Assembly: GCF_007830175.1 (NCBI RefSeq)
Contig: NZ_VLKH01000001.1
Location: 558,001-622,000 of the forward strand
Origin: Sedimentibacter saalensis
GTDB taxonomy: Bacteria; Bacillota; Clostridia; Tissierellales; Sedimentibacteraceae
Direction: 5' to 3'
DNA length: 64,000 nucleotides
Shown here: positions 61,319 to 64,000 of the stretch, in pieces
How the letters are laid out: each line of letters begins with the position of its first letter
Numbering within the stretch: the stretch's first letter is position 1
Translations under genes and position numbers: made by a program
Notes under the pieces: generated by a model
Seen by the model: the letters and a program-made list of their open reading frames with translations, nothing else
What the model was told of the DNA's origin: nothing
The model's database searches: none

Positions 61319-62128
61319 TTACCCCAACGCAACATCAAGTACCATCATTATTAAAAATCCAAGCATTGTTCCTATAGTTCCTGCATGAGAATGTTCAACA
61401 GCCTGTGATTCTGGTATGAGTTCTTCCACAACAACATAAATCATGGCTCCTGCAGCAAATGCAAGCATCCATGGCATAATTCCGGCAACTTTGTATACAA
61501 GCAGTGCTCCTGTAACTCCGGCAATAGGTTCAACTATTCCCGAGAGTGCTCCATAAACAAAAGACTTATTCTTTGAAAATCCCTCATTTTGCAGAGGCAA
61601 TGAAATTGCTGCTCCTTCAGGAAAATTTTGAATTCCCATTCCAATAGCAAGGGCAAAGGCGCTCATAAGTGCAGGCTGTGAGTTAATATGTCCTGCAAGT
61701 CCGAATGACAAACCAACAGCCATTCCTTCAGGAATATTGTGTAGTGTTACAGCCAAGACAAGCATGGTGGTACGTTTAAATGAACTTTTCATTCCTTCAG
61801 GCTTATCCTGATCAATGTGAAGGTGAGGAAGGATTTTATCAAGCAAAAACAAGAAAACTCCGCCAATTACAAATCCGCCTGCAGCGGGTATCCAGCCTGT
61901 TACACCTTGTTCCTCAGCCATTTCTATGGCCGGTATTAAAAGTGACCACACAGAGGCTGCAATCATAACACCTGCAGCAAATCCCAGGAAGGCATGCTGC
62001 ACTTTTGGATTCACATCTTTTTTCATGAGATAAACCATTGATGCTCCGGCAGCTGTAGCCAGAAATGTGAAGGTTGTTCCCAAAAGAGCCAAAGTCAAGG
62101 GGCTAAAATTTAATATTTTTTCAATCAT
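61319..62128 (-). CDS. ZIP-family metal transporter (ZupT-like)
   Basis: 269 aa, eight membrane segments. The two metal-binding helices are HNIPEGMAVGLSFG and IQNFPEGAAISLPL. A short His/Asp segment (LPHLHIDQDKPEG) forms the cytoplasmic loop. It should import Zn2+ or another divalent metal. The signature order matches the ZupT/GufA branch. An AAGAGGTG box precedes the ATG. Monocistronic. Confidence 0.92.
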   Translation of the reverse strand: MIEKILNFSPLTLALLGTTFTFLATAAGASMVYLMKKDVNPKVQHAFLGFAAGVMIAASVWSLLIPAIEMAEEQGVTGWIPAAGGFVIGGVFLFLLDKILPHLHIDQDKPEGMKSSFKRTTMLVLAVTLHNIPEGMAVGLSFGLAGHINSQPALMSAFALAIGMGIQNFPEGAAISLPLQNEGFSKNKSFVYGALSGIVEPIAGVTGALLVYKVAGIMPWMLAFAAGAMIYVVVEELIPESQAVEHSHAGTIGTMLGFLIMMVLDVALG

Positions 62129-62239: not shown

Positions 62240-62268
62240 TTGACAATTAATATTTATGGGAGTATAAT
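62240..62268 (+). promoter_or_regulatory. his operon promoter
   Basis: TTGACA, exactly 17 bases, TATAAT: a perfect housekeeping consensus. The expected start site is 15-20 bases before the leader peptide ATG. Confidence 0.92.
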
Positions 62269-62292
62269 CGGAATAATTATTAGAGGTGTGAT

Positions 62293-62361
62293 ATGAAAAA
62301 TAAATTATTATGCACAACATTCGTACAATTGCATCATCATAGATACAGAGTTTGTAAGTGA
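62293..62361 (+). CDS. his operon leader peptide (22 aa, three consecutive His)
   Basis: MKNKLLCTTFVQLHHHRYRV followed by CK and TGA. The ATG follows AGAGGTG. Three CAT codons (62332-62340) lie just before a strong hairpin (62348-62387). This is the classic design of a ribosome-mediated attenuator: stalling on His codons when charged tRNA(His) is low should change folding and prevent the terminator at 62439. The downstream genes are hisZ and hisG. Confidence 0.8.
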   Translation: MKNKLLCTTFVQLHHHRYRVCK

Positions 62362-62387
62362 ATTTGAAAATTCACAGTTACAAGCTC
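62348..62387 (+). promoter_or_regulatory. his leader pause/antiterminator hairpin
   Basis: GAGTTTGTAA pairs with TTACAAGCTC (one G-U), and inside it GTGAATTT pairs with AAATTCAC. It overlaps the last codons of the leader peptide. AGATAC (62341) can also pair with GTATCT (62413), giving a competing fold. Confidence 0.65.
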
Positions 62388-62438
62388 TATTCGTCGTTTA
62401 GAATTTAGACTTGTATCTGTGGTAGATAAATGAGACGT

Positions 62439-62469
62439 AAGCCGCTTGATATAAGTCAAGCGGCTTTTA
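62439..62469 (+). terminator. his operon attenuator terminator
   Basis: AAGCCGCTTGA and TCAAGCGGCTT form a perfect 11-bp stem with a 6-base loop followed by TT. It lies between leader peptide and hisZ. Confidence 0.85.
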
Positions 62470-62668
62470 TTATGCCCTAACCCCATTGTTGCGAGCGATA
62501 GCGAAGCAAGAATGGTTGGTAGGTCAAACGCAATGAGTTCCCAATTTATGCGACCGTAAGGAGCTGATAAATTGGTGAACGAAACTGCGATATGCCCTGC
62601 GATAACCAAAGTAAGTCGCGGTAGGTCAAAGCAAACAGCAATATAAAATAGGTTAAACCCAAATCTCA
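62470..62668. repeat. structured, GC-richer repeat-like segment between the attenuator and hisZ
   Basis: About 200 bases with base composition unlike the AT-rich surroundings and no credible gene. It holds direct repeats GGTAGGTCAAACGCAA and GGTAGGTCAAAGCAAA, and two ATGCCCT starts. GTTCCCAATTTAT pairs with ATAAATTGGTGAAC, extended by CGCA/TGCG. A small hairpin, TTGCGAGCG...AAGCAA, also occurs. It looks like a mobile or dispersed palindromic unit inserted in the leader. Confidence 0.6.
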
Positions 62669-62678
62669 AGGAGGATTT

Positions 62679-63626
62679 ATGAATTTTTTAAATATTGAAG
62701 ATGAAATGAAATTTTTTCAAAAAATGTATGTGCTTAGAAAAGATATTGAGAACTTTTTATTCGATGAAGGATATATGAACATAGAACCATCCATATTTGA
62801 AGGATATGATGATTTTATAGGAGTTAATTCAAGAATAGACAAAAAATCAACCGTGAAGCTTCTTGACAACAACAGTGAAATTTTAATCCTTACTCCTGAC
62901 ATTACAACAGGAATAGTAAATAAATTTATGCCAAGGTGGGAAATGAGTTCACTGCTTAAAATTTTCTACTACGGCAAGACATACAAGCACAACGGAGTAG
63001 GAATTAAGGAAAACAGGGAAATGGGAGTTGAAATAATCGGAGAAAAAAATCACTTCACCGATGAAAATATACTCAATACATCTGCAAGAATAATTGCCAA
63101 GTACAGCAGCAATTACTTGTTTGAAATAGGAAACAGCAAATTTTTAAAAGGAATAATGCAGTCCTGTTCCTTTAAAAAAGAAGATTATGAAAATATACTG
63201 GATATTTTGTATCTTAAAAACAGACAGGAGCTGAAGGATTATTTATCAAAGCTTCCTTACAGGGAACCCATGAGCACACTTTTAAACATATTTGACCTTG
63301 AAGGAACATTTGATGAAATAACCGAGGAACTGAAAGGGCTTTACATGAACGATCTTATGAAGCAGGGGCTTGATGAACTTAAGAAAATTGACAATTACAT
63401 GAAAAACATCACAGACAAAATAACATACGACCTTTCCATGGTTTCTGAACTTTCCTACTACGATGGAACAATATTCAGGGGATACATAGAAGGTTCAAAC
63501 AAGGCCATCATCAAGGGCGGAAGATACGATTCATTCACAGAGCAGTACGGATACAAAATTCCTGCCATGGGTTTTACTGTTGAACTGGATGAACTTATAA
63601 AAGTTCTTTACAAGGAGGAGCAGTAA
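62679..63626 (+). CDS. hisZ: ATP phosphoribosyltransferase regulatory subunit HisZ
   Basis: 315 aa, a histidyl-tRNA synthetase-like class II fold without charging function. It begins 'EDEMKFFQKMYVLRKDIENF' and has the motif 2-like 'YYGKTYKHNGVGIKENREMG'. The C-terminal glycine-rich 'AIIKGGRYDSFTEQYGYKIP' matches HisZ. It is shorter than HisS because the anticodon domain is missing. HisZ activates short-form HisG and mediates histidine feedback. AAGGAGG precedes the ATG; the stop overlaps hisG by one base. Confidence 0.93.
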   Translation: MNFLNIEDEMKFFQKMYVLRKDIENFLFDEGYMNIEPSIFEGYDDFIGVNSRIDKKSTVKLLDNNSEILILTPDITTGIVNKFMPRWEMSSLLKIFYYGKTYKHNGVGIKENREMGVEIIGEKNHFTDENILNTSARIIAKYSSNYLFEIGNSKFLKGIMQSCSFKKEDYENILDILYLKNRQELKDYLSKLPYREPMSTLLNIFDLEGTFDEITEELKGLYMNDLMKQGLDELKKIDNYMKNITDKITYDLSMVSELSYYDGTIFRGYIEGSNKAIIKGGRYDSFTEQYGYKIPAMGFTVELDELIKVLYKEEQ

Positions 63627-64000
63627 TGAGTTTAACAATAGCAATACCAAAGGGAAGACTGGGAAGCCAGGCCATAGAAATGTTAAAGGCTGCAGGAATA
63701 GGAGAATCCATCGATGAAAAATCAAGAAAACTTGTTTTCGATGATGAACAAAGAAACTTGCGCTTTATGCTTCTTAAGAATTCAGACATTATAACATATG
63801 TTGAAAACGGAGTTGCAGACATTGGAATTTCAGGAAAAGACATGATAATGGAAAACAGCGCTGACATTTACGAGCTATACAAAATGAATATAGGAAAATG
63901 TAAAATTTCAGTAGCCGGAATAAAGGGAAAGAAAATATTCAAGGACGACACCATAATAAAAGTTGCAACAAAGTTTCCTGAAACCGCAAAAAAATATTTC
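63626..64000 (+). CDS. hisG: ATP phosphoribosyltransferase catalytic subunit HisG (short form), partial
   Basis: The first 125 codons are present; the gene leaves the right edge. MSLTIAIPKGRLGSQAIEML is the HisG N-terminus. 'VENGVADIGISGKDMIMENS' is the conserved substrate-binding block. It catalyses the first step of histidine synthesis from ATP and PRPP. The presence of hisZ means it should be the short form of about 210 aa. Its start overlaps the hisZ stop (TAATG). Confidence 0.95.
   Translation, partial: MSLTIAIPKGRLGSQAIEMLKAAGIGESIDEKSRKLVFDDEQRNLRFMLLKNSDIITYVENGVADIGISGKDMIMENSADIYELYKMNIGKCKISVAGIKGKKIFKDDTIIKVATKFPETAKKYF

Follow-up and report, generated by a model that had tools for sequence, protein, structure and literature searches.

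A probable histidine attenuator before hisZ in Sedimentibacter saalensis and a Bacillota leader scaffold with exchanged specifier codons

Introduction

Leader-peptide attenuation is usually taught as a proteobacterial mechanism, with T-boxes filling its place in Firmicutes. Yet, leaders with runs of His codons before hisZ and hisS* in bacilli were already predicted in 2010, as the consulted part of PMC2965389 reports, and the available text of a 2022 study (PMC9413887) gives 17 Firmicute genomes with predicted His-leader attenuators, in the B. cereus group, the Peptostreptococcaceae with Lutispora and the Erysipelotrichales. The accessible portion of PMC8632094 contains other leader-ORF motifs, none of which equals the scaffold described below. 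Two published RNA families bear on this scaffold. The trpB motif (RF04312) is presented, in the excerpts available from PMC11109978, as a strong riboswitch candidate whose P1 contains an antiterminator, and its authors did not rule out a classic attenuator. The Enterococcus RNA sRNA_2410 is described in PMC5593968 as a small RNA of 195 nt giving two transcripts on northern blots, and the word "leader" is absent from the part of that text on sRNA_2410 that was available.

Here, we analyse the leader of the his operon of Sedimentibacter saalensis within a window of 64,000 nucleotides, i.e. the whole stretch of DNA under analysis (contig NZ_VLKH01000001.1, positions 558,001 to 622,000). A preliminary description, made from the sequence alone, had read this leader as a ribosome-mediated histidine attenuator and thought it unusual for a firmicute. 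The reading is supported by the results below; the unusualness is less than supposed, given the His-leader attenuators in print, as far as the available parts of PMC2965389 and PMC9413887 show. Histidine attenuation in Firmicutes is not new as a mechanism, and the leader in the window is an ordinary, well supported member of a predicted kind. What is new is the shared scaffold and its overlap with the orphan riboswitch candidate RF04312. In the open-licence literature, covered mostly through titles and the openings of abstracts, we found no description of this scaffold with exchanged codons.

Results

The his leader in the window

The leader has the architecture summarised in Table 1, and the promoter, the 22-codon leader ORF with its three CAT codons and the position before hisZ-hisG are as the preliminary description had proposed. 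Between 61500 and 63000 there are 8 promoter-like sites (5.3 in shuffles, sd 2.7), and only that at 62240-62268 matches the consensus at 12 of 12 positions. The GAGGTG of the leader Shine-Dalgarno is conserved across 7 aligned leaders. The terminator had been called perfect, which holds for its 12-pair stem and fails for its tail, which reads TTTTATTA. The RNA 62275-62480 has a folding energy of -64.4 kcal/mol, against -37.25 (sd 3.7) in 200 shuffles (z -7.34).

Table 1. Coordinates of the features of the his leader and the genes behind it, in window positions
Feature	Position	Strand	Remark
Promoter TTGACA-17-TATAAT, sigma-70-type	62240-62268	+	12/12 consensus positions matched
Shine-Dalgarno AGAGGTG of the leader ORF	62282-62288	+	direct reading
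Leader ORF, 22 codons, MKNKLLCTTFVQLHHHRYRVCK, then stop	62293-62361	+	same-genus relatives share frame and His run
Specifier run CAT CAT CAT, three His codons	62332-62340	+	genus range 3-4
Segment 0, AGAUACA	62341-62347	+	partner 62412-62418 when ribosome absent
Segments 1 and 2, first hairpin, AGAGUUUGUAA with UUACAAGCUCU	62347-62388	+	
Segment 2 portion able to pair with segment 3 (62410-62420, one mismatch)	62374-62384	+	
Segment 3, GACUUGUAUCUGUGGUA	62408-62424	+	switch strand common to 0:3, 2:3 and 3:4
Intrinsic terminator, 12-pair stem 62439-62466, then T tail	62439-62472	+	
Segment 4 core, GAUAUAAGUC, terminator inner 5' arm and loop	62448-62457	+	antiterminator partner of 62408-62417
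Interspersed repeat between terminator and hisZ	62473-62660	+	position and length not conserved among relatives
hisZ, first gene of the operon	62679-63626	+	TIGR00443 best NCBIfam match
hisG	63626-64000, runs past window end	+	TIGR00070 198.5 bits, cut-off 75.75

The operon has the order hisZ-G-D-C-B-H-A-F-IE and a complete his set, the part beyond the window being taken from locus L095; the score of HisZ against TIGR00443 (183.6 bits) is below the cut-off of 271.65. The start of hisZ lies 213 nt beyond the terminator stem. The repeat in this interval has 47 matches listed in the S. saalensis genome at E 0.001, of varying lengths; by eye, repeat-like words are present in the leaders L003 and L007 and absent from L004 and L005. 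On the other side of the leader, the divergent neighbour (61319-62128, minus strand) resembles the zinc transporter ZupT, with 136.1 bits and a cut-off of 252 that is not reached.

The preliminary description saw no T-box, and neither a T-box nor a riboswitch is found at the Rfam cut-off in the window, where only three tRNAs reach it; a T-box match is also absent from locus L095. A TrpR-family (HisR-type) repressor was not found in the S. saalensis genome, with positive controls in E. coli and B. subtilis. The window combines two hallmarks of leader-peptide attenuation: an ORF, predicted to be translated, with a Shine-Dalgarno sequence and a cognate codon run, and an intrinsic terminator (62439-62466) with the full his operon downstream. 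It also shows the features by which His attenuators are recognised in the available text of PMC9413887, i.e. a His-run ORF directly upstream of attenuator and terminator hairpins, and no HisR found.

Competing helices in the window RNA

Three helices compete for segment 3. In computed folds that contain no ribosome, pairing 0:3 has P 0.91 at most transcript ends, and a ribosome at the His codons or at the stop brings it to P 0; 2:3 has P 0.99 at most ends with the ribosome at the stop codon. The third is the antiterminator 3:4 (62408-62417 with 62448-62457), an alternative to the terminator that was absent from the preliminary description; it has 10 pairs and a duplex energy of -13.6 kcal/mol. 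When a ribosome is placed on any of the His codons, RNAs ending at 62455-62461 have P(3:4) 0.89-1.0, and P(terminator) stays at or below 0.04. Without a ribosome, P(terminator) is 0.98 at end 62461 and P(3:4) is 0.63-0.87 at 62457-62459, while with the ribosome at the stop P(2:3) is 0.74-0.99 and P(terminator) at end 62461 is again 0.98. From end 62463 onward the terminator gains in every ribosome state.

We then moved the ribosomal A site codon by codon along partial transcripts. At end 62461 the antiterminator has P 0.93-1.00 for A sites 62326-62338, i.e. the last two codons before the run and the three His codons, 0.72 at A site 62323, at most 0.29 at the other scanned codons, and 0 without a ribosome or with one at the stop. 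At end 62459 there is no discrimination, P being 0.84 even without a ribosome. The full-length RNA gives the terminator alone, at P 0.95-0.96 for every ribosome position tried; this is literally one of the outcomes that the preliminary description had named as refuting its reading, and it is only in partial transcripts that the alternative appears. Since the full-length fold is the terminator and end 62459 is not discriminating, discrimination by the ribosome is confined to a narrow transcript length, and since the full-length terminator always wins, the switch model depends on co-transcriptional timing. The alternative predicted in partial transcripts is what co-transcriptional control needs, yet it is no proof of it.

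Conservation within Sedimentibacter

The nearest named relatives, from Sedimentibacter, Tissierellia and Firmicutes records, provide six loci with HisZ identities of 70-96%, and all six keep the leader ORF, the His run, the hairpins and the terminator. A full-length HisZ match exists in 18 of 25 same-genus genomes, other matches being distant (20-27% identical) or scrap. The covariance model R1 was built from seven leaders, whose own matches are thus a matter of construction; it detects the leader in 20 of the 25 genomes: all 18 with hisZ, and two (G009 and G014) of the 7 without a full HisZ match. In G009 hisG follows the leader directly, and in G014 the contig ends inside the element. A His run of 3-4 codons in frame is present in all 20 leaders, 18 before hisZ, one before hisG and one cut by the contig end. 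The comparison with relatives suggested by the preliminary description thus gives a His run in 19 of 19 readable leaders and in the contig-cut twentieth, with the codons and the frame up to the run kept.

Leaders differ in the N-terminal part of their peptides by in-frame length steps, with the frame up to the His run kept. Behind the run, the S. acidaminivorans leader (L007) has its reading frame displaced against the RNA; hence, in this stretch it is the RNA, not the peptide, that is kept. In the G009 locus (L053), where the leader precedes hisG without hisZ, hisG is in two pieces with an unread residue, so that the arrangement might reflect an assembly fault or a real loss. By eye, extra sequence lies between promoter and leader ORF in L006 (5590-5700) and L005 (5750-5810). 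Rows L068, L069 and L070 of the R1 genus search, the last of them being the reverse strand of L053, were judged to be chance.

A scaffold shared beyond the genus

At E 0.01, R1 has matches in 25 of 391 genomes of the class. The seven best outside S. saalensis (to E 5.1e-6) are His-run leaders with hisZ, and L079 (E 9.8e-5) and L094 (E 0.0096) are His-run leaders with hisS; the other 15 (L078, L080-L093) lack a His-run leader and were taken as chance. Two further models were built successively, R2 from 28 leaders and R3 from 39 leaders with the codon run cut off. With R2, 22 of the 391 class genomes gave a match, as did 5 of 398 at phylum level, where two were taken as chance. This model already brought up leaders whose codons are not His but Phe (L106), Tyr (L112, L108) or Trp (L113). 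R3 matched in 24 of 391 class genomes, including the unclear G390, in 48 of 146 genomes of the family of G396 and in 33 of 118 genomes of the order of G652, which is related to the window at phylum level only. We read 60 of the R3 places, 30 of 64 in the family and 30 of 34 in the order. All 60 have a short ORF preceded by a Shine-Dalgarno sequence, with His, Phe/Tyr or Trp near its end; three of them had been used to build R3, so that 57 lie outside the model.

One locus counts against this reading: in L194 (G390, E 5.6e-5) the scaffold comes with an ORF, MLKVQFIKLNNGYNI, that lacks a clear His, Phe, Tyr or Trp run; the locus is possibly decayed or carries another signal. A candidate second copy in the S. 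saalensis genome (L177, R3, E 0.036) lies, by eye, in an apparent coding sequence, has no leader and was discarded as chance, as were the R2 rows L109, L114 and L115, and, in the R3 class search, L201 and a reverse-strand match in G078.

The loci were gathered in an alignment of 99, A8, which excludes the rows judged to be chance, L067 (contig end), the same-genus near-copies L048, L055, L062 and L063, the G078:C27 locus (L073/L096), whose reverse-strand match had entered an earlier alignment, L194, and loci repeating a place already held. The helices of the covariance model are paired in 86.3% of cells overall, with 90.2% for 1:2 over the 99 loci and, as the weakest, 72.7% for 0:3. Helices 2:3 and 3:4 are not pairs of the model, and the shuffles with which they are compared ignore relatedness. 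Helix 2:3 is paired in 92.5% of cells (shuffled 86.8, slid controls at most 46.6), with 103 double-change cells against 33.9 shuffled and 9 pairs with double changes against 6.9, a value reached in 32 of 500 shuffles. Helix 3:4 is paired in 90.6% of cells (shuffled 88.1, slid controls at most 67.3), with 30 double-change cells against 10.9 (0/500); two of its five covariation measures, the 5 pairs with double changes (143/500) and the 13 further types (239/500), are not above shuffles.

Folding was extended to 98 loci. Unconstrained, at arm+2, the mean P(3:4) is 0.21 without a ribosome, 0.34 on early codons (1-3), 0.32 on specifier codons (0.48 at the best position) and 0.07 at the stop; the stalled state exceeds both the stop and no ribosome by 0.2 in 39 of 98 loci, and the stop is higher in 1. 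At equilibrium, therefore, stop and stalled states differ, and early and specifier codons, on average, do not. A second set held hairpin 1:2 as if formed first, an assumption that favours the model and on which the clearer contrast depends. Here P(3:4) is 0.78 stalled (best 0.82), 0.47 without a ribosome and 0.09 at the stop. The stalled value is above that at the stop in 87 of 98 loci, with none reversed, a comparison in which the held pairs differ by construction because segment 1 is covered at the stop codon; it is above both other states in 45 (arm+2) to 64 (arm+6) of 98. With the full-length terminator always winning and the averages over 98 loci weak, we set equilibrium folding aside as a decisive test.

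Specifier codons and downstream genes

An ORF rule that ignores residue identity detects leaders in 98 of the 99 A8 loci, the remaining one, L079, being seen separately; for L168 the rule picked the wrong frame and the right one was read separately. His, Phe, Tyr and Trp together make up 36.6% of the last ten leader residues, compared with 9.8% in the proteins encoded downstream. Each of the 42 leaders ahead of hisZ, hisS or hisG contains a His run, identified by the rule in 40 and visually in L097 and L079. Where a TrpX-like binding protein or trpB follows (29 loci), the leader carries Trp in 25 cases, four of them with just one, and Phe/Tyr in the other 4. Ahead of a symporter, permease or BrnQ the codons are Phe/Tyr without exception (25 loci, two of them read by eye). 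His runs also occur in three further loci. In L103 the leader precedes hisD (39% identity over 420 residues), and in L104 (1276-1482, minus strand) and L110 (1653-1856, plus strand) an ORF of 67-68 residues follows, similar to the latter half of the HisRS anticodon-binding domain (positions 44-93 of PF03129) with 26 bits in L110, above the cut-off of 21, and 19.9 in L104, just below it. Among the 99 loci there is no His run before a Trp or Phe/Tyr gene, nor the reverse. These loci are related to one another, so the counts do not represent independent events.

The one Trp-leader TrpX tested passes the NCBIfam TrpX cut-off of 390 (463), whereas the one TrpX-like protein tested behind a Phe/Tyr leader fails it (314). 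The Tyr/Phe leaders of L122, L135, L140 and L198 precede proteins of the branched-chain carrier family, and that of L135 passes NCBIfam livcs (317, cut-off 243.4); their codons suggest that these carriers may take aromatic substrates.

Overlap with published RNA families

RF04312 starts in segment 2; its P1 corresponds to 2:3 and its second hairpin to the terminator. Among 20 loci scanned, the Trp leaders L148, L150, L156 and L167 pass its cut-off, and at E 0.5 it matches 16 of the 20 at the leader and nowhere else, including leaders with His (L117, L075, L096, L098, L074, L146), Phe (L116, L127, L130) and Tyr or Phe/Tyr (L123, L135, L163). A search of 18 further loci at E 5 places it at the leader in 8, among them five from the own genus (30.6-38.5 bits). 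The window itself matches in register at 62371-62476 with 27.8 bits and does not reach the gathering score of 59; its E of 0.074 alone is not significant, as the same 451-nt search gave a plainly spurious plant-virus family a better E of 0.0014 on the opposite strand. RF02863, the family of Enterococcus sRNA 2410, has a consensus that starts inside the specifier codons and includes the 0:3 pairing; its cut-off of 61 is passed by L166 (65.6), whose leader is MKPLNTKQLNNTFFYFSFFR, and the window has no match at E 10. The his leader of E. coli and Salmonella (RF00514) has no match in the window even at E 10.

Discussion

The leader in the window is very probably a ribosome-mediated attenuator sensing histidine through its three His codons, built on a scaffold that belongs to a Bacillota family with exchanged Phe, Tyr and Trp specifiers. 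Its elements, their conservation and the competing helices are documented above; the switching is predicted by folding, and dependence on tRNA charging is inferred. In the absence of a ribosome, segment 0 would hold segment 3, the terminator would form and the operon would be off. When charged tRNA-His is scarce, a ribosome stalled on the His codons would cover segment 0 and let hairpin 1:2 form, and the free segment 3 might then pair with the 5' arm and loop of the terminator, turning the operon on. A ribosome that reaches the stop codon would cover segment 1, so that segment 2 takes segment 3, the terminator forms and the operon is off.

It was of interest to weigh this against a direct sensor. 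A ligand-binding riboswitch, in which the 2:3 hairpin and the terminator sense a metabolite as proposed for the trpB motif, draws on the classification of RF04312 as a strong candidate (PMC11109978, available part) and on its coverage of segments 2, 3 and the terminator. We regard it as very unlikely. The codons of the upstream ORF track the downstream gene in 99 loci while segments 2-4 keep one plan, and a direct sensor of four amino acids should alter its core instead. The segments upstream of RF04312 are conserved and pair with segments 2 and 3, and the attenuator option was, in the same available text, left open by the authors of the motif. In our reading, RF04312 may be the lower half of a ribosome-read attenuator. 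A nascent-peptide arrest, with the leader peptide stalling the ribosome on the free amino acid rather than on empty tRNA, fits the Arg and stop codon that often lie close behind the specifier run, and arrest near a stop codon is known elsewhere. It is nevertheless highly improbable here: neither the length nor the sequence of the peptide ahead of the run is constant, the L007 frameshift leaves the codon run alone constant, and high amino acid should turn synthesis or uptake genes off, the opposite of induction driven by arrest.

Two further schemes fare worse. The textbook order of E. coli trp and his, in which the stalled ribosome masks segment 1 and 2:3 is the antiterminator, is scarcely credible for this leader, in which 2:3 leaves the terminator arm free and coexists with the terminator in stop-codon folds, and whose His codons precede segment 1 rather than forming part of it. 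A constitutive terminator behind a chance ORF has for it that short ORFs and terminators are common and that the full-length fold is always the terminator; but chance would hardly keep His with his and Trp with trpX, and the conservation and the match between codons and genes over 99 loci leave this account a negligible probability.

Ribosome-mediated attenuation thus accounts best for the locus, and its wider version, which we consider probable, is one scaffold with exchangeable specifiers across Bacillota, recorded to date with the four amino acids that carry a ring (His, Phe, Tyr and Trp), of which RF04312 and sRNA_2410 would be parts rather than a riboswitch and a free sRNA. Specificity might shift through small changes in the codon run, the end of which would also pair with the switch strand. 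Because the codon run would set specificity, the codons would predict substrates: Trp for TrpX, and Phe/Tyr for the TrpX-like protein and the BrnQ-annotated carriers. That one family has the scaffold in 48 of 146 genomes, and one order in 33 of 118, suggests a regular alternative in Firmicutes. If this is true, the function of a published orphan riboswitch candidate would be settled and the hunt for its ligand spared, and specifier codons would give direct predictions of the substrates of ambiguous amino-acid transporters.

How does this compare with known systems? The his leader of enterobacteria (RF00514) has in common with the window leader the His-run peptide and the attenuation logic, and differs in the order of its segments, the codons of the window lying upstream of segment 1. 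The attenuators of PMC9413887, in the part of that study available, are like that of the window, with a short ORF, a terminator, an antiterminator and a his operon or hisS, and have 3-5 consecutive His codons where Sedimentibacter has 3-4; Sedimentibacter has no occurrence in its main text, and the available text draws no link to Trp, Phe or Tyr leaders. His T-box riboswitches serve, according to the same available text, the same genes with the same signal in many Firmicutes, whereas neither the window nor L095 has a T-box match. The trpB motif (SRC-39-1), for which the accessible part of PMC11109978 gives more than 900 representatives in Firmicutes and Fusobacteria, is in register with segments 2, 3 and the terminator, and its RF04312 model excludes the leader ORF and segments 0 and 1, which are present in the scaffold described here.
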